From an uncultured bacterium (GTDB lineage Bacteria; Verrucomicrobiota; Verrucomicrobiia; Verrucomicrobiales; Akkermansiaceae): DNA of 36,724 bases. Below the pieces are notes generated by a model. The model searched no databases. It saw only the letters and a program-made list of their open reading frames with translations, and was not told the DNA's origin. The translations under genes and the position numbers were made by a program. How positions within the stretch are numbered: position 1 is the stretch's first letter; each line of letters starts with the position of its first letter. The stretch spans positions 1 through 36,724 of the forward strand of contig CAMEZO010000007.1 of the NCBI GenBank assembly GCA_945947905.1. Reading direction: 5' to 3'. This document shows, one piece after another, positions 2,166 through 16,426 of the stretch.

Positions 2166-2732
2166 TCAGCTCTCTATGCTCGAGATAAGGGCGGAGACGG
2201 GATCGGGGAGCCACCCCTCCGGCACGGGCGTGCGGGAAAGGAGGCAGCGACGAATGGCAGAAGACGAGGCGGGGTGGTAAGCTCCGTCGATGAAGAGAGA
2301 ACGCACACCGGGACGCGGCTGCGGGGGAGCACCGCGGTGGTAGACGATAAAAGTAAGGTGGGTGATGAGGTAATCATACCCGGCCCAGCGGTGAAGCTGC
2401 TCCCACTGATCCGTCCCGAGCAGCCAGAACAGCTCGTCCTCCGGGCATTGAGTACGGAAGGCCTCTACCAGGCGCCAACTCCAACTGGGGGCCGGCAGGC
2501 GCAGGTCAAGATCCGACACCTCCGCCCAAGGCACCCCCTCCACCGCCGCACGGAGCAACTGCAGGCGCACCTCGGCCGGAAACAGCCCCGCCCCCTCCTG
2601 CTTAAAGGGTGAGCGGTTGGCCGGCAGAAACACCACCCGCTGCAGGCCCGCCTGTTCCTGCGCCGCCGCCGCGATAGCCAAGTGACCGGCGTGCACGGGG
2701 TCAAAACTTCCGCCGAAGAGGCAGGTCTTCAT
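2166..2732 (-). CDS. nadD: Nicotinate-nucleotide adenylyltransferase
   Basis: Joins ATP and nicotinate mononucleotide to give deamido-NAD in cytoplasmic NAD synthesis. The nucleotidylyl-transferase signature GGSFDPVHAGHL is at residues 7-18 (the H-x-G-H motif that binds ATP phosphates), and the C-terminal SSSAIRR near residue 157 matches the family ISSTxIR motif. LLGTDQWEQLHRW in the middle also fits. The length of 188 aa is normal. The start ATG (2732) shares one base with the stop of the upstream M23 gene (TGATG), so the two are translationally coupled; an in-frame GTG one codon earlier (2735) is the alternative start. It is the last gene of the nusA-infB run. No clear terminator is seen in 2046-2165. 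Confidence 0.93.
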   Translation of the reverse strand: MKTCLFGGSFDPVHAGHLAIAAAAQEQAGLQRVVFLPANRSPFKQEGAGLFPAEVRLQLLRAAVEGVPWAEVSDLDLRLPAPSWSWRLVEAFRTQCPEDELFWLLGTDQWEQLHRWAGYDYLITHLTFIVYHRGAPPQPRPGVRSLFIDGAYHPASSSAIRRCLLSRTPVPEGWLPDPVSALISSIES

Positions 2733-3415
2733 CACAGTCCCTCGGTATCTTTGTAGGGCAGGAAACCGCCGATGGGGAGCTTAATGAGCTTACCCGGCTC
2801 CGGAGTCAGGCGGCGGTAGTGATTGATGAAATCTGAGAGGCTCCCGTAGTTGCGGGCGTTCTTGGGGATACCCTGCTGCCCGCAGTTGACAAGCACGTTA
2901 TAATGCAACTCCGAGTGCAGGTGAGCCGGAAACATCCCCCGATTGGTACCGATGGTGCCGATCTGGTCCCCGCGCTGCACGATTTGGCCAAGGACCACAT
3001 CAATGCGATCCAGATGCCCGTAAAGAGTCTGGCAGCACAGCACCTTACCTGTTTTGGGTTCACGGAAAGCATGGCGAACGATAACCACGTTTCCCCAACG
3101 CCCGCGGGCATCCGCCGCGTAGGTCACCAAGCCGGTGCCGATGGTGTAAACGGGATCCCCCAAATCTGAATTACCGCCGCCGTTGCCGTTCCAGTCCTCA
3201 CCCATGTGGCGGGGAGAAGCGAGACGAAGGCCGCGGGACTTGTAGTACCCCGCGCCGTCCGGCTTGCCGACGGGGTAATCAAACCCATCTGCCAGCGGAA
3301 CGAAAGCCCACTTGCCATCCGGCGTTTTGCGAGCCATTTCCACAGCATTGATCGGCGCACTGCTCACGGCGAGCAGCGCAAGAATCAGCAGTAAGCGGCG
3401 GTAAAGGTGAGCCAT
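2732..3415 (-). CDS. Secreted M23-family metallopeptidase
   Basis: 227 aa with an N-terminal signal sequence (hydrophobic residues 8-20, likely cut near residue 24). The M23/LytM zinc-site motifs are complete: HMGED (His70, Asp74), YGHLD (His134) and HLH at 165-167. Members of this family cut peptide cross-links of peptidoglycan or act as scaffolds. With all ligands present this one should be an active endopeptidase in the periplasm. It lies 69 bp after the AsmA-like gene and overlaps nadD by one base, so it belongs to the end of the nusA operon. There are no LysM or coiled-coil regions, so it is a catalytic domain plus signal peptide. Its peptide specificity cannot be read from the sequence. 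Confidence 0.85.
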   Translation of the reverse strand: MAHLYRRLLLILALLAVSSAPINAVEMARKTPDGKWAFVPLADGFDYPVGKPDGAGYYKSRGLRLASPRHMGEDWNGNGGGNSDLGDPVYTIGTGLVTYAADARGRWGNVVIVRHAFREPKTGKVLCCQTLYGHLDRIDVVLGQIVQRGDQIGTIGTNRGMFPAHLHSELHYNVLVNCGQQGIPKNARNYGSLSDFINHYRRLTPEPGKLIKLPIGGFLPYKDTEGL

Positions 3416-3484: not shown

Positions 3485-6400
3485 TCAACGCCGCTTGCGG
3501 GATGACTTGCGCGCGGGTTTGGGATGCAGCAGCGGCTCCGGCTTCTTGGAAGTCGGGTGCGCCTCCCCGAAGATGGACTTGATCATACGCAGGTCTTTCT
3601 CCGGAATACCGGGACGGAGCAGGACGCTCCACGAAATCTCGTTGACGGTGCCGGTTATCTTAAAATTGAAAAGATAATCCAGCGTTGAGAACAGGAACCC
3701 CGGCAAGCTGTTGACCTTAGGCTCCAGCGTCGCGCTGATACCCAGGGTGTCCAGGTTGATATCAAAATCATTCACATGCACGTTCAGGTTATTTCCCTTC
3801 ACCTTGAAGGACTCAGCCAGAAGATGCCCGCCGACGATACCGAAATCCGCATAGGCCTCGCGCAGGGTCATGTTGGTGAAATGGTTGATAAACGGGATGT
3901 GATTGATAGGCCCCGTAAAGGCATGATCAATGAAGGTATCCCAGGGATTTTCCTCATCCGTGTCCGGCTTCTTGGCCGCCTTCTTACCGAGCACACCGGT
4001 CTTTGTGCCGTCCTGCTGCGCCTCCTTCTTGTTGCGGTTGAAGAAAGACATCACGCGGTTGGGGATAAGCGTAATCAGCGAGCGCACGGGACTGAAAATT
4101 CCCAGCTCCAGCAGATTACCATCAATGACGGAGAGCGAGCCGTAGCCCTTGAGATTGTTGAGGTCCGGCAACTGATAGCGGAAACGGAAATCCGCAGCGC
4201 AAAGAGCACGGCTGAGATCCGCCCCGTAGGCAGCGGCAAGCTCGCGCAGGTTCACGTTCTTCATGTTCACATACCCATCCAGCAAGGTATGCTCACCGCT
4301 GAAATCAATGTTCAACTGAGCATTGACAATACCCGAGAAGGTCATCGCGTTCAGCCGATCCAGATAAACCGAGGTATCATTGATGCGGATGAAACCGGTG
4401 AGCTTGTCCAGCGGGTAACCCGTACTCAGGAAATCGAAAACGGTATCCCGAGGAGCACGCAGGCTGATGGTCCCCGTCATGGGCTGCGTGCAGTCATCCG
4501 CAATGGGGAAACGGCAGTAGTCCGCCCGCACATCCACGGGAGAGAAGAACAGGACATCCTTCATGAAGTCGCGGAGCGGGTAATAGAAAGTACCGATGGA
4601 ATAGGCGGGGTAAACGGTACCGGAGAGCTTGTTGAGCTCCACGGTACTGCGCTGAATATCCAGCACCACGGACTCACCCTGCAGAACGCTGCGCGCGGGG
4701 GGATTCGCCCGGTCATCCGGAGCAAGCTCGCTCTTCGCCAGCTCCCTGAGCCAGGGCGCATTATTGAAGTCCATGTAGGGGTTGCGCAGGGTGATAATCG
4801 TCTCTCGCGGGATGATGTTACCCTGTGCGTCCTTCATGCCGCTCTTCTCCACCACATCCACGATGCAGCTCACCGTATTCAGGGCGGAGAACGGTTGCAC
4901 GCCGTCCTCCTTGTTCGGCACCTCTTCTCCCGTGGGCTTTCCGTCCGCGTCTTTCACCGCCTTGATGCCGCCGAGGAGGTACTCAATGTTCCGGAGCTCG
5001 GCACGGCAGACGCTGTGCAGGGAGAGGCCGTTCGAGTAATCGATGGTCACATCGATATCCGATACCTTGGACTGCGCCCCCGCGGGCATGCGAAAATCAC
5101 GGATAATCTCGTGAGCAGCGTTCAGGTCCAACAGCTCATCGATAACGGTAGGCAAGATATCCGTCTCGCCGGTAATATGCACCTGCCCCGCTGTGTTCCC
5201 CCGGAATCGGGTGTTGAGCTGCTGCTTGCCGGGCAGATGCGTGAGCTGCAGGGTACCGGAGTACTGCACGGGGGCACCGGCTTTCTCCTGACGCGCCTGC
5301 GCCGCCACGGACAGCGCTACCTCGTTCTCCCGCCCGCGGAGCATGGGAACATTGTGGGACGTGCGCACCAGGTGAGGCAGCTCCACCCGAGCCTCGGCAG
5401 CGTGCAGGCAGGGCCCTTCTGCCAAGCCCAAGGTGGCGCTTCCGGCCAGCGTCAACGCCTCCGGCCAGCGGATGTCCTCCGTCTGTACCCCGACCGCCGT
5501 CAGGAAATCCGCCAGGGTCGCAGGGTGGAGGTTAGCCTGCATATCCCGCAGGCTGATGATGTTATCCGCACTCCAATCCACGACCAAGGAGAGAGCCTGC
5601 CCCGTCTCCGTATCCCCCAAGAGGCACTGCAGGGCCGCCTGTTGTGCCCCCGGAGAGTCGGCCCGCACAGAGAGCTCGCCGTACTGACGGCTGCCGTAGG
5701 AGAAAGCCCCTGTACCGAGCTCGAGCGCCACACGGGTCGGGCGGAAAGCCTTGTCCCCCTTCAGCGGAATGTCGTCCGCCTCGAACTTCTTCAGCGCCGC
5801 GTTGTCGACCCGCGCCTCGCCGAGGGTGAGGGAATGCGAGGCACCGGTGATCGTGAGCTGCTCGATGGCATCCCACCCCTGCGGGAGCCGGCATGCCACA
5901 TTCAGGCTCACCCCCGGAATACTGAGGGAAAGTTCCCCCGCGCCGCCGGAAATACGGCGTGCCGCCAGAGTCAATCGCGGCTGCACGGCTTCCTTGTTCA
6001 TGGGCGGGACCAGCTCCTCCAGCGCAAGGGTGAGCCCCTCCGCATGCCAATCCGCGCCGTCCGCATGCTCCGCCGCGGCCTGCAGCGAGACTCCGGCTAC
6101 CCCCAAAGCCTTCTCCCCGGACGGCGGCTGCAGCTCGCGCGCGTGCAGATTCACCTGCAGCCCGCTGAGGGTCTGTGCCTCCTCGCCTGTACCGAGGTGC
6201 ACGCTGTCCGCCGAGAGGCGCACCTGCGCATGCCGGACAAAGGGCAGCTCCGTGGCCGACTCCGCCCGACACCCCTCCGCCACCAAGCTGATGCGCGGCC
6301 CGAGCAGCTCCGCCTCCCCGTAACTGAGTCCCGGCATGCGGACGACGGCGTGCACATACTCCGGGCGGGGAATGAGCTCCTCCAAGCGGGTCGGCTCCCC

Positions 6401-7864
6401 GTCAGCGGGGGAAGCAACAAAACGCAGCTTGGCATCGAGCCCCAGGGAGCTGCCGAGGGTAAGCCCCTCCGGCAGCGCTATGGGGGAGCCGGTGAAATAC
6501 TCCGCAATATCAAGCACATCCTGCACATCCACCTCGCCGTGCAGGTAAGCTACATCGGCTTCCCTGCCGGTGTTGAACATGCCCTCGATACCGCGATCAT
6601 CATCAAACATGATCTTGAGCTTGTCCACATGCAGACGTTGCCCGTTGTAGAAAAAAGAAAGGTAAGCCTGCTTCAGAAGCGTGGGCCCCAGGTACAGGTC
6701 TTTCTGGTCCAGGCCCACACGCACCTCCGCCCGCTTGGGGGCCTCCCCGGGGATGTCGGAAAGCTCGGCATTGGCCTTCACGGAGATGCCCAGCGGCATC
6801 TTGGCGTTGCTGCGAATACCGCGCAGAACGGGGGGAATATCATCTCCGAGAACGGTTCGGAGCAGGTCGAAGAGCATGAGTTGCCCGTCAATCTGCAGAG
6901 CTGCCTCTCGTGTGTTGAGGTCATACGCTCCGCGCAGAGCAATCTCCGTATCGGGTTGCACCGTGCGGAGGGAGATACTGTTAACATGCAGACGCCCGGT
7001 GTGGTACTCCACATCGGCCTTGAAGTCCCGGAGGTGGATGACGGGCAGCTCCTGCACCTCCGTGCCCTCCGCCTCCACCCCGGGAAGCGGCGGCAGGGTA
7101 ATACCGGCCATCGGCTTGACGTCCAACTCCTCGATATCGAAACGCGTGCGGACATGCAGCGGCGGGGTTCCGGAGCCGTCCCATTTGCCGAGCCCCACGG
7201 AGGTGTAGATATGGATGTGCGGGGCGCCCGCGGACTTCAGGTTCTCGATCCGCTCATAGACGGTGTACAACAGTTCGCGATTCTCCCGCAGCAGGGCCGC
7301 GATGTCCAAGGGAGCGGTGTCCTTCTTCTCCTGAGTCTCGGCCGGGGTGGGCAGATTGATGCGGCCGCTGAAGTTCAGGTCCAGAAAGTCCTGCACACAG
7401 AGGTGGGCCGTAGCAATGCCGAGGGCACCTTTTCGGTCACCGTTCAGCACAATGCCGCCCGTGGTCAGCTCCAGCGTTCGGCCCCGATCGTCGACCGGCA
7501 GGCTGATGCGCGCCTTGCCCAACCCCACCTGCACGGGCACGACTTCGCCGCACAGCAGGGGCATGAGCCGAACGCCTGCAGAGATATCATCACAGTGCAG
7601 CAGGCGTTGGGTACGTGCACGGTCGGCGTATAATTCCACCCCCTCCACCTTCAGGCCGAGCCCGAGGTCCGGGGCCAGATAAGCTTCCTCGATCTTGAGG
7701 TAGATACCCTCCCGCTCCGCACGCTCGCAGACGCAGTCCAGCAGCGGGCGCGGAATGCCCACCCAAGTGAGCCAAGCCACGCCTAACACCACGGTGAGCA
7801 GCGCAAGCAAGCACAATGCCGGCAGCACGATGCTTTTTCGCCTGATGGGTAGCCTGCGCACCAT
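3485..7864 (-). CDS. Large AsmA-like envelope protein
   Basis: 1459 aa. A basic N-terminus (MVRRLPIRRK) is followed by one transmembrane helix at residues 13-33. A very long periplasmic region then has repeated amphipathic beta segments of the kind seen in AsmA/YhdP/TamB-like proteins (for example LHVDKLKIMFDDDRGIEGMF, FSGIVNAQLNIDFSG, INDTSVYLDRLNAM). The C-terminus is rich in Arg and Lys. Proteins of this class are thought to form long grooves that carry phospholipids between inner and outer membrane. The assignment rests on architecture rather than a strict motif. The gene starts 15 bp after rbfA and precedes the M23 peptidase by 69 bp, so an envelope-maintenance gene is wired into a translation operon. 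The minus-strand frame is open for 4.4 kb with no break. Confidence 0.75.
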   Translation of the reverse strand: MVRRLPIRRKSIVLPALCLLALLTVVLGVAWLTWVGIPRPLLDCVCERAEREGIYLKIEEAYLAPDLGLGLKVEGVELYADRARTQRLLHCDDISAGVRLMPLLCGEVVPVQVGLGKARISLPVDDRGRTLELTTGGIVLNGDRKGALGIATAHLCVQDFLDLNFSGRINLPTPAETQEKKDTAPLDIAALLRENRELLYTVYERIENLKSAGAPHIHIYTSVGLGKWDGSGTPPLHVRTRFDIEELDVKPMAGITLPPLPGVEAEGTEVQELPVIHLRDFKADVEYHTGRLHVNSISLRTVQPDTEIALRGAYDLNTREAALQIDGQLMLFDLLRTVLGDDIPPVLRGIRSNAKMPLGISVKANAELSDIPGEAPKRAEVRVGLDQKDLYLGPTLLKQAYLSFFYNGQRLHVDKLKIMFDDDRGIEGMFNTGREADVAYLHGEVDVQDVLDIAEYFTGSPIALPEGLTLGSSLGLDAKLRFVASPADGEPTRLEELIPRPEYVHAVVRMPGLSYGEAELLGPRISLVAEGCRAESATELPFVRHAQVRLSADSVHLGTGEEAQTLSGLQVNLHARELQPPSGEKALGVAGVSLQAAAEHADGADWHAEGLTLALEELVPPMNKEAVQPRLTLAARRISGGAGELSLSIPGVSLNVACRLPQGWDAIEQLTITGASHSLTLGEARVDNAALKKFEADDIPLKGDKAFRPTRVALELGTGAFSYGSRQYGELSVRADSPGAQQAALQCLLGDTETGQALSLVVDWSADNIISLRDMQANLHPATLADFLTAVGVQTEDIRWPEALTLAGSATLGLAEGPCLHAAEARVELPHLVRTSHNVPMLRGRENEVALSVAAQARQEKAGAPVQYSGTLQLTHLPGKQQLNTRFRGNTAGQVHITGETDILPTVIDELLDLNAAHEIIRDFRMPAGAQSKVSDIDVTIDYSNGLSLHSVCRAELRNIEYLLGGIKAVKDADGKPTGEEVPNKEDGVQPFSALNTVSCIVDVVEKSGMKDAQGNIIPRETIITLRNPYMDFNNAPWLRELAKSELAPDDRANPPARSVLQGESVVLDIQRSTVELNKLSGTVYPAYSIGTFYYPLRDFMKDVLFFSPVDVRADYCRFPIADDCTQPMTGTISLRAPRDTVFDFLSTGYPLDKLTGFIRINDTSVYLDRLNAMTFSGIVNAQLNIDFSGEHTLLDGYVNMKNVNLRELAAAYGADLSRALCAADFRFRYQLPDLNNLKGYGSLSVIDGNLLELGIFSPVRSLITLIPNRVMSFFNRNKKEAQQDGTKTGVLGKKAAKKPDTDEENPWDTFIDHAFTGPINHIPFINHFTNMTLREAYADFGIVGGHLLAESFKVKGNNLNVHVNDFDINLDTLGISATLEPKVNSLPGFLFSTLDYLFNFKITGTVNEISWSVLLRPGIPEKDLRMIKSIFGEAHPTSKKPEPLLHPKPARKSSRKRR

Positions 7865-7879: not shown

Positions 7880-8266
7880 TCAGATTTCCGGGTCGCTCTC
7901 CCCCTCCGGCAACGGGGGAGCCTTCGGTAGGTTTTTGTCGATGTCCTCCAACAGATTCACCAGCTCCACCCCGCGGCGGGCCGAGTCATCGTGCTTGAAG
8001 GTGAGGCGAGGCGTGCAGCGCAGGACAACCCGCTTGCTCAAGGCTCGCTGGATCTCACCCCGGTGCCGCGTGAGCTTATCAATCACCTGCGCGGGAGCCA
8101 TACGGCCCACCACACCGACCCACACACGGCCTTCCTTCAAGTCCTCCGTCACCTCCACGTCCAGAATGGAGACGATGGTGCCGTGCCATTCAAACTCCTT
8201 CTGAATGTAGGTGCCGATCTCCCGCTTGAGGAGCTCGTTGACTTTTTCTAATCTGCGGGATGCCAT
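7880..8266 (-). CDS. rbfA: Ribosome-binding factor A
   Basis: 128 aa. A small KH-fold protein that binds the 30S subunit during 16S rRNA maturation. The N-terminus (SRRLEKVNELLKREIGTYI) and the strand-helix region (VTEDLKEGRVWVGV) are typical, and the central ALSKRVVLRCTPRLTF matches the family consensus of RxxPxLxF. The Pro/Glu-rich tail after residue 113 is variable in the family. It starts 6 bp after infB, the usual infB-rbfA order. Confidence 0.92.
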   Translation of the reverse strand: MASRRLEKVNELLKREIGTYIQKEFEWHGTIVSILDVEVTEDLKEGRVWVGVVGRMAPAQVIDKLTRHRGEIQRALSKRVVLRCTPRLTFKHDDSARRGVELVNLLEDIDKNLPKAPPLPEGESDPEI

Positions 8267-8272
8267 GCGGAA

Positions 8273-10354
8273 TCAGAGCGTTTGCTGAATCTTCTCGAGC
8301 AGGTAACACTCGATGACGTCGCCTTCCTCGTAGTCGTTGTAGTCGGCCAAACGAATACCGCACTCCAAACCGGCCTTGACCTCCTGCACCTCGTCCTTGA
8401 AGCGGCGCAGCGTAGACATCTTGCCGTCGAAGACCACCTGCCCGTCGCGAATAACACGCGCCTCACCCGTGCGCAGCATCTTACCGTCGCTCACATAAGC
8501 ACCGGCGGCCTTGCCCTTGTTGGCGCGGAACACCTGCTTCACCTCGGCATGGCCGAGCACCGTCTCACGGGTCTCCGGCTCCAACAGGCCGAGCATGGCA
8601 TCCTTCACCTGGTCGATCAGCTCGTAGACGATGGAGAAGATCTTAACCTGCACGCCCTCGCGCTTGACCACGCGCACGGCGTTCGACTCGACCTTGGTGT
8701 TGAAGCCCAGGATAATCGCGTCCGCGGAAGAGGCCAGCAGCACATCACTCTCCGAGATGGGGCCGGCAGCCGCACCGATGAAGCGGCACTCCACCTTCTC
8801 ACTCTCGATATCAAGCAAGGCTTTCTTGATGGCTTCCACAGAACCCTGCACGTCCGCCTTGAGCACCAGGTTGAGCATTGCTTTCTGGTCTCCGTTGTTG
8901 CTGAGAATGGACGTGATGTCCTCCAAGCGGGAGCGGCGGGGGGCAGCCAAACGCTCGCGGCGCTGCTCCTCCTTGCGCTCCTCGGAGAGCTTGCGGGCCT
9001 CGCGGTCATTCTTCATGGCCACCAGCTCGTCGCCCACGTTCGGGGTCTCCTCAAAGCCGGAGATCTCCGCGGGCATGCCGGGCGTGGCTTTCTTGATTTT
9101 CTCGCCGCGGTCGTTGAGCATGGTCTTGACCTTGCCCGCCGCCGCACCGCAGATGAAGGGCGTGCCCACCTTGAGCGTGCCGCTCTGCACGATCACCGTG
9201 GCCGAGCTGCCCTTGCCTTGCTCCAGGCGCGACTCGATGATAGAGGCGCGGCAGTTGGCGCGCGGGTTGGCTTTCAGCTCCAGCACCTCCGCCTGCAGGC
9301 AGAGGAGGTCCAGCAGGCTGTCGATGCCCGCGCCCGTGGCAGCGGATACATCCACGCATTCCACATCACCGCCGAAGTCCGTGGGAATGAGCCCCTCTTC
9401 CATCAGCTGAGTGCGCACGCGCGTGGGGTCAGCCGCCGGCAGATCGCACTTGTTCACAGCCACGATGATGGTCTTGTTCGCAGCCTTGGCGTGCATGATG
9501 GCTTCCTTCGTCTGCGGCATGATGCCGTCGTTGGCGGCCACCACCAGCACCACGATGTCCGTCACATCCGCGCCGCGGGCTCGCATCTCGGTGAAGATGG
9601 CATGGCCGGGGGTATCGATGAAGGTAAGAGTCTGATCTCCGTGTTGCACGGTGTAGGCGCCGATGTGCTGGGTAATGCCGCCGGCCTCACCGGCCACCAC
9701 TTTCGTGCGGCGGATGTAGTCCAGCAGGGAGGTCTTGCCGTGGTCCACGTGGCCCATCACCGTGATGATGGGGGTGCGCAGGCGCAGGGCATCCTCCGGT
9801 TCTTCCTCTACCGCAACGGGTTCCGGCTCCTTGATGGGCTCCGCGGCGGCCTTGACGCCGGCCCCCTTCTCGCGGCGCACGCGCTCGTGCGCGAAGCCGT
9901 GCTTCTCACACAGGGCGGAGATTTGGTCGTTGTCCAGCATCGTGCCGGGGTTGGCAAAGACGCCCATGGGCATTAACTCCGCAATGAGCTTGAAGGGTTT
10001 TAAGCCCATGAGGCTCGCCAGCTCGGAGACAGAGACCGGGGCCTTGACGTTGATCACATTGCCCGACACAGAAGCCGCTTCCGGTGTCTCGGCCGGTGCA
10101 GGAGCAGGAGCCGGCGGCTCCGGGGCTGCGGGTTGAGCGGCAGCCGGCTTGGGGGCCGGGGCTGCGGGCTGCTCCGCCGTGCGGCTCTTGGTCTTGCGCG
10201 GGCTCAGCAAGTCCAGCGCTTCCTTGCGGGGGGGCGTCGACTTGCTCGCGGCAGACGGTGCGGCCGCAGGAGTAGCGGGGGCCGCTGCCTTCTTCTTCTT
10301 ACTTCCGCCCAGTAGGTCCAGGACCTCCGGCTTTTTCTTGGGTTTTTCCGGCAT
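8273..10354 (-). CDS. infB: Translation initiation factor IF-2
   Basis: 693 aa. A GTPase that brings initiator tRNA to the 30S subunit. From the N-terminus: a Lys/Ala/Pro-rich flexible region (1-100) in which a short LDLL-plus-basic motif occurs twice (residues 12-22 and 48-57), then one IF2_N module (about 103-160), then the G domain with G1 GHVDHGKT (201-208), GGITQHIG, G3 DTPGH, G4 NKCDLP and G5 SAATG. Domains II-IV follow, including a clear IF2 C-terminal beta barrel ([21 protein letters not shown]). The protein is shorter than the 890-aa E. coli form because the N-terminal part is reduced. It starts 28 bp after nusA and ends 6 bp before rbfA. Confidence 0.97.
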
Positions 10355-10382: not shown

Positions 10383-11678
10383 TCAGATACCGCGAGCCTT
10401 GGCTATAATCTCACCGGCCTCGGCTTCGCTGATTTGAGCAGCCTCCGCCAGATCCGCAGGGTTCGTATCGTCCCCCGCTATCTGCTCCACGGTGGTGAAG
10501 CCGCCCTGTACAATGCGCCCTGCTATCTCGGCAGAGATGCCCAGGCTTTCGGCCAGGGCCTCGGTGCCTTCCTTGGCCAGGGCCTTGACTGCCGCACCGG
10601 CATCGTGCGGTACCACCAGCACCTCCCAGCGCTCGTTCTTGGCAGAAATCAGGCGGCCCGTCAGGCGCACATTCTGCCCGCGGCGGCCCTTCGCCTTGGC
10701 CGCGGCTTTGTCGTCCGCCACCACCACGGTCACCTTGCGGGTCTTCTCGTCCACAATCACGTCCAGCGGGTTGATCGGATCCAGCGATTGCAGCACCATG
10801 GAGGCCTTGTCGTCCGTGTATTCCAGAATGTCAACTTTCTCGTGGTTCAGCTCGTTGACGACATTCTTGACGCGCACGCCGCGGATGCCGACGCAGGCGC
10901 CGATGGGGTCCACATTCGGGTCCGACGTGCGCACCACCATCTTGCTGCGGTAACCGGGCTCGCGCACCACGGTGACGATGCTGATAGTGCGGTCCGCAAT
11001 CTCGGCCACCTCGCTCTCGAAGAGGCGACGCACCAACTCGCTGCTGCTGCGGGAGAGGATGAGCTCCTTCGTGCCGCGGTTGCGGTCCTCGCGCACATCC
11101 TTGACCAGGAAGCGCATCTTGTCCCCGGGGGAGTACTCCTCGCCGGGGACGCGCTCGCGCTGCGGCATCACGCCTTCAAAGCGGTCTACCTCCACAATCA
11201 CATCGCCTTTCTCGTAGCGCTTCACCGTGCCGGTCACCACTTCGTTCACGCGCTCGCGGAAGTTGTCCGCCAGCATCTCCTGCTCGGCCTTGCGGATGCG
11301 CTGCTGCATCGTCTGCCGCGCCGTCTGCACCGCTATGCGGCCGAAGTCCTTGGGGGTCACGTTCACGGAAATCGTGTCGCCGACCTTAAAGGTCTTTTCC
11401 GCTGCCGCCGGGGAGGCCTGGATCACGGAGTTCTTGATCTCGTTGTACGGGTCGCGGAACTCGGCGTCGTCCACTATAGTCATGACGGCCTTGATCTTGA
11501 CCGTGCCCTTCTGCGGGTTAATCACCGCGCGCAGCTTCCGTATGCGGTCTGCACCGGGTACCATCTTGGAGTATGCCGTCAGGAAGGAGGCTTCCAATGC
11601 CTTGAGGACGCACTCGCGCGTGAGGTCCTTCTCGCGTACATAGTAATCAATAAGTGCGGAAATGTCTGTGGTGGCCAT
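10383..11678 (-). CDS. nusA: Transcription termination/antitermination factor NusA
   Basis: 431 aa. Binds RNA polymerase and nascent RNA and modulates pausing, intrinsic termination and rRNA antitermination. The N-terminal polymerase-binding domain (residues 1-125), S1 domain (about 135-200, VTGTVKRYEKGDVIVEV), KH1/KH2 region with the signature DPNVDPIGACVGIRGVRV, and a C-terminal helix-hairpin-helix-like part (GRIVQGGFTTVEQIA) are visible. It is first in its operon: the usual upstream rimP is absent here. There is no good Shine-Dalgarno sequence before ATG 11678. The promoter lies about 100 bp upstream with a terminator-like hairpin in the leader, which suggests attenuation, plausibly autogenous. 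Confidence 0.96.
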   Translation of the reverse strand: MATTDISALIDYYVREKDLTRECVLKALEASFLTAYSKMVPGADRIRKLRAVINPQKGTVKIKAVMTIVDDAEFRDPYNEIKNSVIQASPAAAEKTFKVGDTISVNVTPKDFGRIAVQTARQTMQQRIRKAEQEMLADNFRERVNEVVTGTVKRYEKGDVIVEVDRFEGVMPQRERVPGEEYSPGDKMRFLVKDVREDRNRGTKELILSRSSSELVRRLFESEVAEIADRTISIVTVVREPGYRSKMVVRTSDPNVDPIGACVGIRGVRVKNVVNELNHEKVDILEYTDDKASMVLQSLDPINPLDVIVDEKTRKVTVVVADDKAAAKAKGRRGQNVRLTGRLISAKNERWEVLVVPHDAGAAVKALAKEGTEALAESLGISAEIAGRIVQGGFTTVEQIAGDDTNPADLAEAAQISEAEAGEIIAKARGI

Positions 11679-11722
11679 GTGCTTGCTGTTTCTGTGTGGT
11701 GCTTTCTCGGCAACGGCTCAAC

Positions 11723-11747
11723 AAAAAAGAGCGGGCCGCGGACCCGC
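11723..11747 (-). terminator. Terminator-like hairpin in the nusA leader (possible attenuator)
   Basis: Read on the minus strand: GCGGG, a 7-nt loop, CCCGC, then TCTTTTTT. The stem occupies 11731-11735 and 11743-11747 and the T-run 11723-11728. It sits between the nusA promoter and the nusA start codon, and the only gene upstream is on the other strand, so it can only act on the nusA operon transcript. The terminated RNA would be about 50 nt. Confidence 0.65.
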
Positions 11748-11779
11748 CCCAATCTGTAAGACCGGAACCTTTCGCGCTT

Positions 11780-11808
11780 ATTCTAGCCCGCCCGGAGGCG
11801 TTTGTCAA
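11780..11808 (-). promoter_or_regulatory. Promoter of the nusA-infB-rbfA operon
   Basis: On the minus strand a full consensus TTGACA (11803-11808), 17 bp, TAGAAT (11780-11785). Transcription would start near 11773, giving a leader of about 95 nt before nusA that contains the hairpin at 11723-11747. Confidence 0.85.
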
Positions 11809-11890: not shown

Positions 11891-11919
11891 TTGACACCGC
11901 TCCCGCCGGATGATAGACT
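11891..11919 (+). promoter_or_regulatory. Promoter and ribosome site of the fucosyltransferase gene
   Basis: TTGACA (11891-11896), 17 bp, TAGACT (11914-11919). ATG is 21 bp downstream and is preceded by AGGA at 11931-11934, so unlike many neighbours this gene has a short normal leader with a Shine-Dalgarno-like sequence. It is divergent from the nusA promoter. Confidence 0.75.
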
Positions 11920-11940: not shown

Positions 11941-12894
11941 ATGAAAATAGCCACGGATGATACTGATTTATGCCGAATCCTCAGCGAGTGGGTGCAGGAG
12001 CACTTCCCCGCCGTCGAGCTTCTGCCCCCGGATCGCTTCACGGAGGCGGATCTCCTCATCTGCGGGGATTTCAGTTACAAGCATGAGCAATTCGACGGCA
12101 TTCGTCTCTTCCTCACCGGGGAGAATCATGCGCCGAATCTCAACCTGTACGATTACTGCCTGACGCACGAGCCCATCAAGACGGATCGCTGCCACCGCTT
12201 GCCGTACTGGCTCTTCATCGCCCTCACCGACCCGAAGTATCGCCGGGAGCTTACGGGGCCGCGCCCGCCCTACACGCCGGAGTCGCTCACGGCAGAGAAG
12301 CGGGAGTTCTGCGCGTTCGTGTGCCGCAATCCCGTTTGCCGAAAGCGTAACAGTCTCGTGCGTCATCTCAACAAACAGCGCCGCGTGAGCTGCGGCGGGC
12401 CGCTGATGAATAATATCGGTTACTGTGTCGAGGATAAGGAGGCTTTCATGCACAAGCACCTTTTCGCCATTGTGTACGAGAATGAGTCACACCGGGGCTA
12501 CCAAACGGAGAAGCTGCCGGATGCCCTCTGCGCCCGCACCATCCCCGTCTATTGGGGTAACCCGGATGTGGCTTCCGAATTTAACAGGCAGGCTTTTATC
12601 TCGGCGAATGATTTTCCCGATGAGAAGGCGCTCCGTGAGCACCTCCTTACCCTCGCCGAAGACCCGGTGCGTATGGTCGACATCCTCAATGCCCCGCCCC
12701 TGGCCTCCCCGGACATCATCGACCGCGCCGAACAAGAGCTCAAAACCTGGTTCTCCGCTATCCTTGCCTGCGGCCCTCACGCCGTCCGCCGCACCCGCCT
12801 CCAGCGCATCCTCGCCGTCCTGGAGCGGTTCTACGGCCACGGCCTCTTCCGCACCCTCCGCCGCATCTCCCGCAGCCTCCGCAACAAAAACTGA
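11941..12894 (+). CDS. GT10-family alpha-fucosyltransferase
   Basis: 317 aa. Likely moves fucose from GDP-fucose to a GlcNAc or Glc residue of a surface glycan (alpha-1,3/1,4). The N-terminal half fits the GT10 acceptor domain. The conserved KREFCAFVCRNPVC (120-133) and the GT10 signature FAIVYENESHRGYQTEKL (175-192, with Glu180, Lys191) followed by IPVYWG (201-206) are clear, as in Helicobacter pylori FutA/FutB. No signal peptide or membrane helix is seen. The C-terminal 40 residues are rich in Arg and amphipathic, as in the membrane-attached tails of bacterial enzymes, but heptad repeats are absent. The gene is alone between divergent nusA and a convergent autotransporter gene. Acceptor and linkage cannot be read from the sequence. 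Confidence 0.88.
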   Translation: MKIATDDTDLCRILSEWVQEHFPAVELLPPDRFTEADLLICGDFSYKHEQFDGIRLFLTGENHAPNLNLYDYCLTHEPIKTDRCHRLPYWLFIALTDPKYRRELTGPRPPYTPESLTAEKREFCAFVCRNPVCRKRNSLVRHLNKQRRVSCGGPLMNNIGYCVEDKEAFMHKHLFAIVYENESHRGYQTEKLPDALCARTIPVYWGNPDVASEFNRQAFISANDFPDEKALREHLLTLAEDPVRMVDILNAPPLASPDIIDRAEQELKTWFSAILACGPHAVRRTRLQRILAVLERFYGHGLFRTLRRISRSLRNKN

Positions 12895-13105: not shown

Positions 13106-16100
13106 TCAGAAAGTCACGCGATACCCGACGGAGCCGTTGAGGGAGGAGGCATCGCCCCGGCACTCCCACGACACGTCGAAGAAGAGGTCGCCCTCCGTTG
13201 ACCCGAGCGGGATCACAATGCCGGCACCGAATTCTCCTCCGAAGGCCCCTGCGCGGGCACTGCGGATGCGCCCACCCTGCGGAATACCCGGTAGGCTGAC
13301 ATCAAGAGTGCTGCGCCGATCACCGATATCAAACTCGGCAAGGGCACGAAGCTCAAGCACCGAGGTTCGGTTGTAGAGGTTCTCCCCGATGACGCATTGG
13401 AAGCGGACACCGACGCCTGGTGTGAAGGTGGTGAGGGTTTGGCTGCCGAAGTGGAGGGCGGCATCGCTGCCGGTCTCGGTGAAATCGTTGATTCTCGTGT
13501 GCCGCAGGGCGAGGGAGACGAGCGGTTGCAGACATGCGTCCGCCTCCTCGTTCAGAGCAACAGCGTATCCCGCTTCGTAGAGGAAGCCGAGGCCGCTGCC
13601 GCGGAAATCTCCACTTGTCTCATACCCCACCTGATTGCTAATTGTTGCATTTCGTTTCATCGTACCGTCTGCCACGCAGGCTGTGGCGATGAAGGTATGC
13701 GTCCAGTTACCGGAGGCATAAATGGCAAAGGGGGAGACGTGGTAAGTGTTCAGATGTCCATCCACCGTGCCCGGGCACTTGGCGGACCACTTGCCGAACA
13801 TGGCCGTAGCAGCCAAGCCCAGGGTGAGATCCGGCGACACACTCACATCCATCCCGACGGTTCCGCCCCATGAGCTGTGGGTATACCCGGGGTCAAGGTC
13901 TTCGCTGCCGTGTGTCTCGTGATGTCCCTCTCCGGCAAACCAAGCGTTGAAGTAGGGGAGATCCTCGTGGACGACATCGCGGGCCAGGCCCATGTGAGAT
14001 GCACGGCTGCGGAGGCTGCGTAACTGGCGCTCCACGTCTCCGGAAAGGGCTTGGGAGAGGACCGTCGCCGCCGAACCGGCCAGGGAGGCCAGCATCTCCT
14101 CCGTCATTGCGTTATCATCCACGGTGTTCATCAGCGCCGCGAGGGCGCCGTCCGGGGCGTTGAGCTGGGGATTTTTCGCGGCGAAAGCGGCGGAGAGCAA
14201 AGAGGCACCCGTGGCCGCATTGCCGCTCGCGCCCACATAGCGCTGAGTCACGTAGTTCGGGTTGAGGTCAGAGGAGAGAATGGCTTGCTGACCCGCCTCA
14301 TCCCAGGCAAGGGTATAGGCATATTTAGCCCCAGCGACAGCCGCGCCGTCGGCCGCCTGCCCGTTCAGGGTCAAACTCGTGCTGCTACCGTTTGCCGATG
14401 CATCGGTGAGCTTCAGCAGGGTCATTTTCTCCGGCAGCACCTTCAGCAGGTCATCGCTGAGAGAGAAGTCCAAATCGGTGGTACCGGCAGCCAGGCGTTG
14501 GGCTGTGAGGAGGGACCCCGAGTTCCCGAGGGTAACGGAGGCCGTGGAGAACGCAAGTTCGCCGTGCACGGTCAGGGAGGCTGCTCCCTGTGCCGAGCCC
14601 AGGGTCAGTGCCCCGAGCTTTGCCTGCGCGGAGTAGATGTGGGAATCGCCGCTGAGAAGGGTCATCTGCCCTGCCTGCACGGAGGCCGCAACTGCATCCG
14701 CCGAGCCGACGAGTAGCTCCGTGGCCTGAACCTTGCCCATCTGCAGGGCGGAATCGGCCTTACTCAGGTGTTGCAGGTTCAGGGCCGTGCTGCCGATCAG
14801 GTCGCCGGTGCTCACCGTCCCGGTCCACCCGCTGCCGAGGGTGATTTTCTCCGGCAACAGAGAGGTGTTATCCAAATTAAACGCGCCGGCACCGGTCAGG
14901 GAGATGCCACCTGCCGGGGCAGAGAAGGAGGCGGCGGAGAGTGTCTTACCGTTCAGGTCAACCGTTCCGCCTGTAGCCGTCGAGGAAATGAAAACGCCCC
15001 CGGTCTCAGCCCCGAGGCTCAGGGTACCCCCGTTGAGAACCAAAGAGGTAGCACCGACAAACTCGGCGCCCGCATCATAGGTGACCGTGCCGGTGGTGAT
15101 GAAATATTCCGTACCGGGTGCAGCGGTGTAGGTGAGCTTGTCACCTGTAGTATTCAGCGTGGCGCTGATGTTCTGCCCGTCCAGCTTCCATTGCACACCT
15201 GTAGCAGCGGTTGCGCTCCCGGTGCCCGTAAAGAGAGTAAACTCGGTAACCCGTGAGGCAAATCCGTTGTTATCAGCACCACTGTAGGTAATGGAATCCG
15301 TGCGCGTCACTCCCGCGCCCAAGGCAATGGTGCCGCTGTACGTCACACTGCCGCTACTGGTGAAAGTCCCATCCAGAGTGCAGTTCGTCAGGTTCAGGAC
15401 GCCGCTGTTGACAGCATTGCTCTTCACCGTCCCGCCCGTCAGGTTAATAGTGCCGGCATTGAATGTCTCGGAGCCCATGGAATACCCCTCGATACTCAGG
15501 GTGCCGTTGGGGTGAACAACAACACCGCCGGCCGTAAGCGAAACACCTTTGATTTCCAAATCGGCGCTTCCATTAACAAGGAGATTGCCGGCAATGTTCA
15601 GAGTGGCATTACTGCCCTCAGTACCATTCTTCCAGCTCCAGCCCGTACCGGAGACGCTGACGGATGCCGCGTTGATGGTGCCATCCAGCTTCACTGCCTC
15701 ACCTGTACCCGTGAAATAGACGTCATAGTTTTCCTTCCAAACGCGGTCCTTTGCGTCGACAGCAGTGTAATGCCACGATGCATCCGCCGTCCAGTTGTCG
15801 CCGGGACCGGAGGTGTTCCAGTAGAGCGTACCGGCATCCAATGCCGACGTATAGGTGAGAGAAATGTTCGTAACTGAAATAACCGCGCCGCCGCCGGCAT
15901 TTGTACCTCCTGCGAAGTTGGCATTCCAAACCACGAAAAGCTGCGTAGAAGCAGAGATCGTGCCTGAGTAGGAGGAGGATACCGTTTTATCTTTCTCAGC
16001 AGCTGCCGGTGTAATGAGCTCCTTGGCGGTGGTGCCATCATAGCTCCAGAGGGAATACCCGGTCCGCTGGGTAGTAGCAAAGTTCAGCGTGATGCTTGTT

Positions 16101-16426
16101 ACCTCTTCGTCTGTCACCACCCCCAAGGCGACATATTCACCGGAAAGCCCGGGGCGGCTGGTAAATGTAAATGACGTGGGGCTAATAATACTGATATCAC
16201 TGCCGTAATCACTGAAACTATAACCCTGCCCCGTACCACCGAACCAGCCAACCTTATCGCTACCGATTGCACCGGCAAGATTCTGCACGATTGCAGCACT
16301 TGCTCCGGTGCCGATTCCGGAGTTATTTCCGAGCACCCAAGTAAAATCTGTGCTCAGAGGAAGCGTTATAGACTCTGCCGAAGCGAGCCCCGCGGAGAGG
16401 AGAAGAAGAAAGAGCATTCGTTTCAT
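13106..16426 (-). CDS. Autotransporter (type Va-like secretion) surface protein
   Basis: 1106 aa. A signal peptide (MKRMLFLLLLSAGLASA) is followed by a passenger of about 800 residues, then a C-terminal beta-barrel from about residue 815 to the end, with alternating strands (TVGMDVSVSPDLTLGLAATAM, SVLELRALAEFDIGD) and a final aromatic residue (GYRVTF), as outer-membrane barrels require. The passenger is rich in Gly, Ser, Thr and Ala with short repeats such as INLTGGTVKSNAVNSGVLNL, fitting a beta-helix. WNTSGPGDNWTADASW resembles segments in passenger-repeat proteins of Verrucomicrobia. No protease triad is recognised, so the passenger may be structural or adhesive. A single gene with its own promoter and terminator. 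The barrel assignment is firm; the passenger's function is unknown. Confidence 0.85.
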   Translation of the reverse strand: MKRMLFLLLLSAGLASAESITLPLSTDFTWVLGNNSGIGTGASAAIVQNLAGAIGSDKVGWFGGTGQGYSFSDYGSDISIISPTSFTFTSRPGLSGEYVALGVVTDEEVTSITLNFATTQRTGYSLWSYDGTTAKELITPAAAEKDKTVSSSYSGTISASTQLFVVWNANFAGGTNAGGGAVISVTNISLTYTSALDAGTLYWNTSGPGDNWTADASWHYTAVDAKDRVWKENYDVYFTGTGEAVKLDGTINAASVSVSGTGWSWKNGTEGSNATLNIAGNLLVNGSADLEIKGVSLTAGGVVVHPNGTLSIEGYSMGSETFNAGTINLTGGTVKSNAVNSGVLNLTNCTLDGTFTSSGSVTYSGTIALGAGVTRTDSITYSGADNNGFASRVTEFTLFTGTGSATAATGVQWKLDGQNISATLNTTGDKLTYTAAPGTEYFITTGTVTYDAGAEFVGATSLVLNGGTLSLGAETGGVFISSTATGGTVDLNGKTLSAASFSAPAGGISLTGAGAFNLDNTSLLPEKITLGSGWTGTVSTGDLIGSTALNLQHLSKADSALQMGKVQATELLVGSADAVAASVQAGQMTLLSGDSHIYSAQAKLGALTLGSAQGAASLTVHGELAFSTASVTLGNSGSLLTAQRLAAGTTDLDFSLSDDLLKVLPEKMTLLKLTDASANGSSTSLTLNGQAADGAAVAGAKYAYTLAWDEAGQQAILSSDLNPNYVTQRYVGASGNAATGASLLSAAFAAKNPQLNAPDGALAALMNTVDDNAMTEEMLASLAGSAATVLSQALSGDVERQLRSLRSRASHMGLARDVVHEDLPYFNAWFAGEGHHETHGSEDLDPGYTHSSWGGTVGMDVSVSPDLTLGLAATAMFGKWSAKCPGTVDGHLNTYHVSPFAIYASGNWTHTFIATACVADGTMKRNATISNQVGYETSGDFRGSGLGFLYEAGYAVALNEEADACLQPLVSLALRHTRINDFTETGSDAALHFGSQTLTTFTPGVGVRFQCVIGENLYNRTSVLELRALAEFDIGDRRSTLDVSLPGIPQGGRIRSARAGAFGGEFGAGIVIPLGSTEGDLFFDVSWECRGDASSLNGSVGYRVTF

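Follow-up and report, generated by a model that had tools for sequence, protein, structure and literature searches.

A terminator hairpin conserved before nusA in Akkermansia and other Verrucomicrobiota: a candidate transcription attenuator

Introduction

The rimP-leader, predicted by Naville and Gautheret (2010), is a terminator hairpin belonging to the 5' region of the nusA- and infB-containing operon, lies 4-130 nt before the first gene, and has been termed the most ubiquitous transcription attenuator (PMC2965389). It has a G-rich 5' arm, a C-rich 3' arm and a stem of the form GGGc(...)gCCC followed by a U stretch, and in its general form no antiterminator is visible. RimP and NusA were both named as candidate regulators and NusA was favoured (PMC2965389), so the idea of a leader attenuator with NusA as its candidate regulator has been known since 2010. 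Rfam holds the leader of the rimP-nusA-infB operon as RF01770 (rimP), a model of 102 positions.

In E. coli, NusA represses its own operon, according to the statement cited in PMC2965389. There, two terminators lie upstream of rimP together with RNase III sites (PMC6511841), and the gene order is metY-rimP-nusA; in both respects E. coli differs from the locus described here. In B. subtilis, as Jayasinghe and Babitzke (2025; PMC12288461) relate from Mondal et al. (2016), NusA controls its own expression by stimulating termination in the nusA leader. As here, the B. subtilis attenuator consists of an intrinsic terminator within the nusA operon leader, but the NusA effect was measured there, whereas the Akkermansia leader is known from sequence, and we liken the two by description. 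Our literature search found no transcript-end data for Akkermansia, and a single paper naming Verrucomicrobia, rimP and nusA together, whose title and abstract concern another subject.

Results

The window (the whole stretch of DNA analysed, 36,724 nt) is contig C7 of a 2.19-Mb Akkermansia genome, and the nearest public relative found is an Akkermansia MAG (L032) with 94% NusA identity. The genes from nusA to nadD are tightly spaced on a single strand, the minus strand (Table 1); among them, the 1459-aa protein gave no match in a Pfam profile search and a weak, GspN-like NCBIfam match below the cut-off. A sequence-only reading of this DNA had proposed that a consensus promoter, followed by a GC stem with a U-run, precedes nusA. 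Indeed, the promoter tops the 5 promoter-like sites in the scanned 10 kb (1.7 expected), and the hairpin with its T run (11750..11723) is the strongest of 14 terminator-like sites in 10 kb (7.6 expected). The order of these parts was also given correctly, while the distances shift slightly: the stem lies 29 nt from the -10 (about 25 had been claimed), and the last U lies 44 nt, not 45, from the nusA ATG. The same reading saw nothing else upstream on this strand, which is not strictly correct, as a minus-strand autotransporter gene is present there. The hairpin is not simply the 3' terminator of that gene, because the GT10 gene, a divergent promoter-like site and the nusA promoter intervene.

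Table 1. Features of the nusA leader and its surroundings, with coordinates in the window
Feature	Coordinates	Strand	Basis or remark
nadD (nicotinate-nucleotide adenylyltransferase), putative operon	2166..2735	-	profile search
M23 peptidase, putative operon	2732..3415	-	profile search
1459-aa protein, next gene of putative operon	3485..7864	-	directly downstream of rbfA
rbfA	7880..8266	-	profile search
infB (IF-2)	8273..10354	-	profile search
nusA (NusA_N, S1, KH domains)	10383..11678	-	profile search; ATG at 11678
Segment after U tract, complementary to 5' region	11709..11722	-	lineage-swap test; MFE fold
U tract, six T	11723..11728	-	first T can also pair in stem
Terminator hairpin GGGGCGGGTC-CGC-GGCCCGCTCT	11728..11750	-	GC-rich, 10 bp
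AGATTGGGGC, 3' arm of possible competing hairpin	11746..11755	-	last five bases are part of terminator stem
5' block GTTCCGGTC	11760..11768	-	98-100% per column in 54 distinct window-clade leaders
GC-rich discriminator AAGCGCG	11773..11779	-	
Sigma-70-type nusA promoter TTGACA-17-TAGAAT	11780..11808	-	consensus match 11/12
Divergent promoter-like site TTGACA-17-TAGACT	11891-11919	+	facing GT10 gene
GT10 glycosyltransferase gene	11941-12894	+	
Autotransporter gene	13106-16426	-	

Judging from the position of the -10, the 5' end of the nusA RNA is expected at about 11771-11773, and the U tract is the predicted 3' end of a leader RNA of roughly 50 nt. Of the 54 aligned leaders of the window clade, 53 have a promoter spacer of 17. 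Many leaders carry a GC-rich discriminator (often GCGCG) after the nusA -10, a feature that could place nusA under stringent or growth-rate control. Compared with shuffled sequences, the 99-nt region folds only modestly better (z -1.3), and the case for the element therefore rests on conservation and covariation.

Conservation within the genus was examined by searching 76 Akkermansia genomes for the pattern GGGTN{3,8}CCCGCTCYTTTTT, with the reversed pattern as control. Exactly one match per genome was obtained in 73 of them, against one match in total for the reversed control, and every one of the 73 shares its contig and strand with nusA and precedes the gene by 27-50 nt (median 41). As for the genomes with no match, nusA was not found in the assembly of G079, while in G028 and G034 a slightly different hairpin is present before nusA (L083, L025). 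A hairpin of this kind thus stands at 75/75 of the nusA loci found in Akkermansia. Across 54 distinct leaders of the window clade, the stem arms and the U tract are 92-100% identical, save one G/A column (72%); the U tract is long and without interruption (6-7 T). The columns AGTTCCGGTC are identical at 96-100% and GATTGG at 98-100%, while most columns of the loop, the spacer and the post-U-tract segment reach about 33%-80%.

The same kind of hairpin was found in leaders from other genera of the family and from other families of the order. Further out, reading 40 leaders of other orders and classes of the phylum by eye revealed a GUGGG/GCGGG...CCC core with a T run behind it in about 33, a different hairpin in 3, and no visible hairpin in 4 (L191, L210, L221, L227). 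In genus g20, the leaders L159 and L160 have a different hairpin core, AAGCAGGGUA...UAUCCUGCUU plus U. Loss of stem pairing in relatives had been named in the sequence-only reading as grounds for refuting it; we ran this check, and with the pairing conserved across the phylum the reading is not refuted. Its proposal that a promoter-proximal terminator is positioned to attenuate nusA-infB-rbfA is likewise supported by the phylum-wide stem pairing and by the genus-wide, single-copy occurrence before nusA.

To assess covariation, the 3' letters of 111 distinct hairpins from the phylum were shuffled 5,000 times, a procedure that does not preserve relatedness. Outer pairs 1, 3 and 4 and inner pairs 1 and 2 beat all shuffles (0/5,000), the pairing of outer pair 5 was reached by 10/5,000 shuffles, and outer pair 2 is invariant. 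The pattern used for collecting the hairpins constrains the letters at the outer pair positions; the inner positions are unconstrained, and inner pairs 1 and 2 are paired in 91% and 82% of the hairpins, respectively, with several pair types. A GGG:CCC core is found in the 111 hairpins, the preceding base being U or C and its partner A or G, although core and neighbouring pair are partly fixed by the pattern that gathered them. The sequence kept beyond pairing across the phylum (GUGGG/GCGGG...CCCRCUC) suggests recognition.

We found no RimP_N domain (PF02576) in 39 genomes of the genus and order or in 69 Verrucomicrobiota genomes, and no RimP C-terminal domain (PF17384) in the same number (0/69) of Verrucomicrobiota genomes, in searches whose controls were each positive in 10 of 14 well-known genomes and which a very divergent RimP could escape. 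With the RimP domains undetected in the phylum sample, the element therefore goes with nusA, not with rimP. The window has rbfA, although RimP was undetected in the 69 Verrucomicrobiota genomes. Like the rimP-leader, the Akkermansia element is a terminator hairpin at the 5' end of an operon with nusA and infB, has the same G-rich and C-rich arms and U stretch, and falls, at 44 nt, within the described distance from the first gene. Unlike the rimP-leader, it stands directly before nusA as the first gene, its core is GUGGG/GCGGG...CCCRCUC, and it has an invariant 5' block that is clade-specific. In the E. coli rimP leader (L235), the terminator CUGGGCUUUAGGCCC with its 7 U likewise lies immediately ahead of the first gene. 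A general Rfam search at the nusA leader locus gave no match; RF01770 in particular did not reach its gathering score (47 bits) there, this model being above cut-off in 1/14 control genomes. On its sequence features, the element is a conserved putative nusA attenuator, a RimP-less variant of the rimP-leader kind.

We also looked at the sequences flanking the hairpin. On the 5' side, 11760-11768 together with 11759 can pair with 11755-11746, giving 10 bp that overlap the 5' arm of the terminator. When the window RNA was folded as a growing transcript from an assumed start, this hairpin (GUUCCGGUCU:AGAUUGGGGC, 10 bp, -11.3 kcal/mol) was predicted before the 3' arm of the terminator emerges, and at the U tract a shortened competing hairpin and a shortened terminator coexist in the predicted fold. 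When upstream sequence was shuffled as a control, leaders of the window clade gave a z of about -0.6 and those from other genera of the family one of about 0; in roughly one third of draws, other upstream DNA matched or exceeded the native pairing. With dinucleotide shuffles and other upstream DNA windows equally strong, we rejected the competing hairpin as a proven antiterminator; in the window clade it is a possible structure, not above controls, in a place where the general rimP-leader has none visible.

No regulon of the 5' block emerged, since among the matches listed for the genus AGTTCCGGTC showed no enrichment relative to the reversed control; the window itself reads AGGTTCCGG at this place. 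Sister genera have a different conserved block, ACUYYUGACG. Judged by eye, the sister-genus block ACUCUUGACG bears some likeness to GCUCUUUGACA, the rrn boxA in these genomes, while the block of the window clade shows no resemblance to rrn boxA; a boxA reading of the 5' block was set aside, as it has resemblance alone behind it.

On the 3' side, many lineages show complementarity between the 5' region and the stretch that follows the U tract, e.g., GUCUUCC:GGAAGAC in L060. With a single sequence drawn at random from each genus, exchanging segments between lineages showed native pairs to be stronger than swapped ones (median z -2.0 to -2.9, median p 0.028 to 0.003), and control segments further downstream gave z near 0; with clustered representatives, z was only -0.1 to -1.9. 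Two variants of the test were discarded, namely a swap among close relatives (0/5,000), inflated by relatedness, and one with representatives chosen after seeing the pairs (z -4.8), which was biased. An outer stem between the 5' region and the post-U-tract segment thus has moderate support from sequence, and it would form only in read-through RNA. GUCU follows the U tract in 31/37 sister-genus leaders, 12/13 of the muciniphila group and 2/54 of the window clade (loci L121-L160, L085-L087 and L235 underlie the GUCU observation), and likewise in the E. coli rimP leader (UUUUUUUAUGUCUUG).

Discussion

NusA binds RNA polymerase and aids hairpin formation in its exit channel. The best explanation of our observations, and one we hold to be reasonably probable, is a nusA-leader attenuator through which NusA exerts negative feedback. 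RNA polymerase would start some 50 nt ahead of where the U tract ends; at the GC hairpin and U tract a fraction of the transcripts would stop, yielding a short leader RNA, while the remaining ones would read through into nusA-infB-rbfA. NusA most likely raises termination at this site, such that high NusA would lead to lower nusA expression. In the window clade, the 5' block GUUCCGGUC may pair first with the base of the terminator 5' arm and slow the folding of the terminator, so that a terminator strong in itself would become adjustable. The downstream genes would be coupled to the attenuator as well, though for the three genes below rbfA we infer this from gene packing only. We consider NusA the probable sensor because of the precedents in B. 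subtilis and E. coli and because the element accompanies nusA where RimP is missing. A point against it is that in B. subtilis most terminators that depend on NusA are weak ones (PMC12288461), while the U tract of the window clade is long and uninterrupted.

An attenuator might also answer to another sensor, such as a ribosomal or other RNA-binding protein, NusG, Rho or the speed of polymerase, acting on the 5' block with NusA as a general helper. That block is particular to its clade and hardly varies, as expected of a protein site, and sister genera have a different but conserved, somewhat boxA-like one; but the likeness was judged by eye, and since clades that differ in their 5' blocks share the terminator core, the conserved part can do without the block, and we regard another sensor as unlikely. 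It is quite unlikely that the hairpin senses nothing and simply cuts nusA transcription by a fixed fraction. Behind a near-consensus promoter, such a constitutive partial terminator would need no sensor, but a weaker promoter would achieve the same, and the specific sequence kept phylum-wide beyond pairing suggests recognition. The outer stem offers yet another role, in which the hairpin, closed by that stem in read-through RNA, would mainly protect, process or position the 5' end of full-length nusA mRNA without termination. The complementarity found in the lineage swap, with its controls near 0, and the action of RNase III in the E. coli metY-nusA-infB leader (PMC5371410) are in keeping with such a role, whereas nearly all members carry a T tract immediately behind the stem, which marks a terminator and makes this role very improbable.

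Returning to feedback by NusA, a more elaborate version, in which a phylum-wide attenuator works without RimP and the window clade adds an invariant, competing 5' hairpin and a strand beyond the terminator with which the leader closes again in read-through RNA, strikes us as doubtful when taken as a whole. That the element has been kept before nusA in a phylum without detectable RimP argues for NusA as the regulator, and the shortness of the nusA leader makes a direct test of this possible. These bacteria probably abort many of their nusA messages early, and, by analogy with the described systems, NusA itself may set how many get through.
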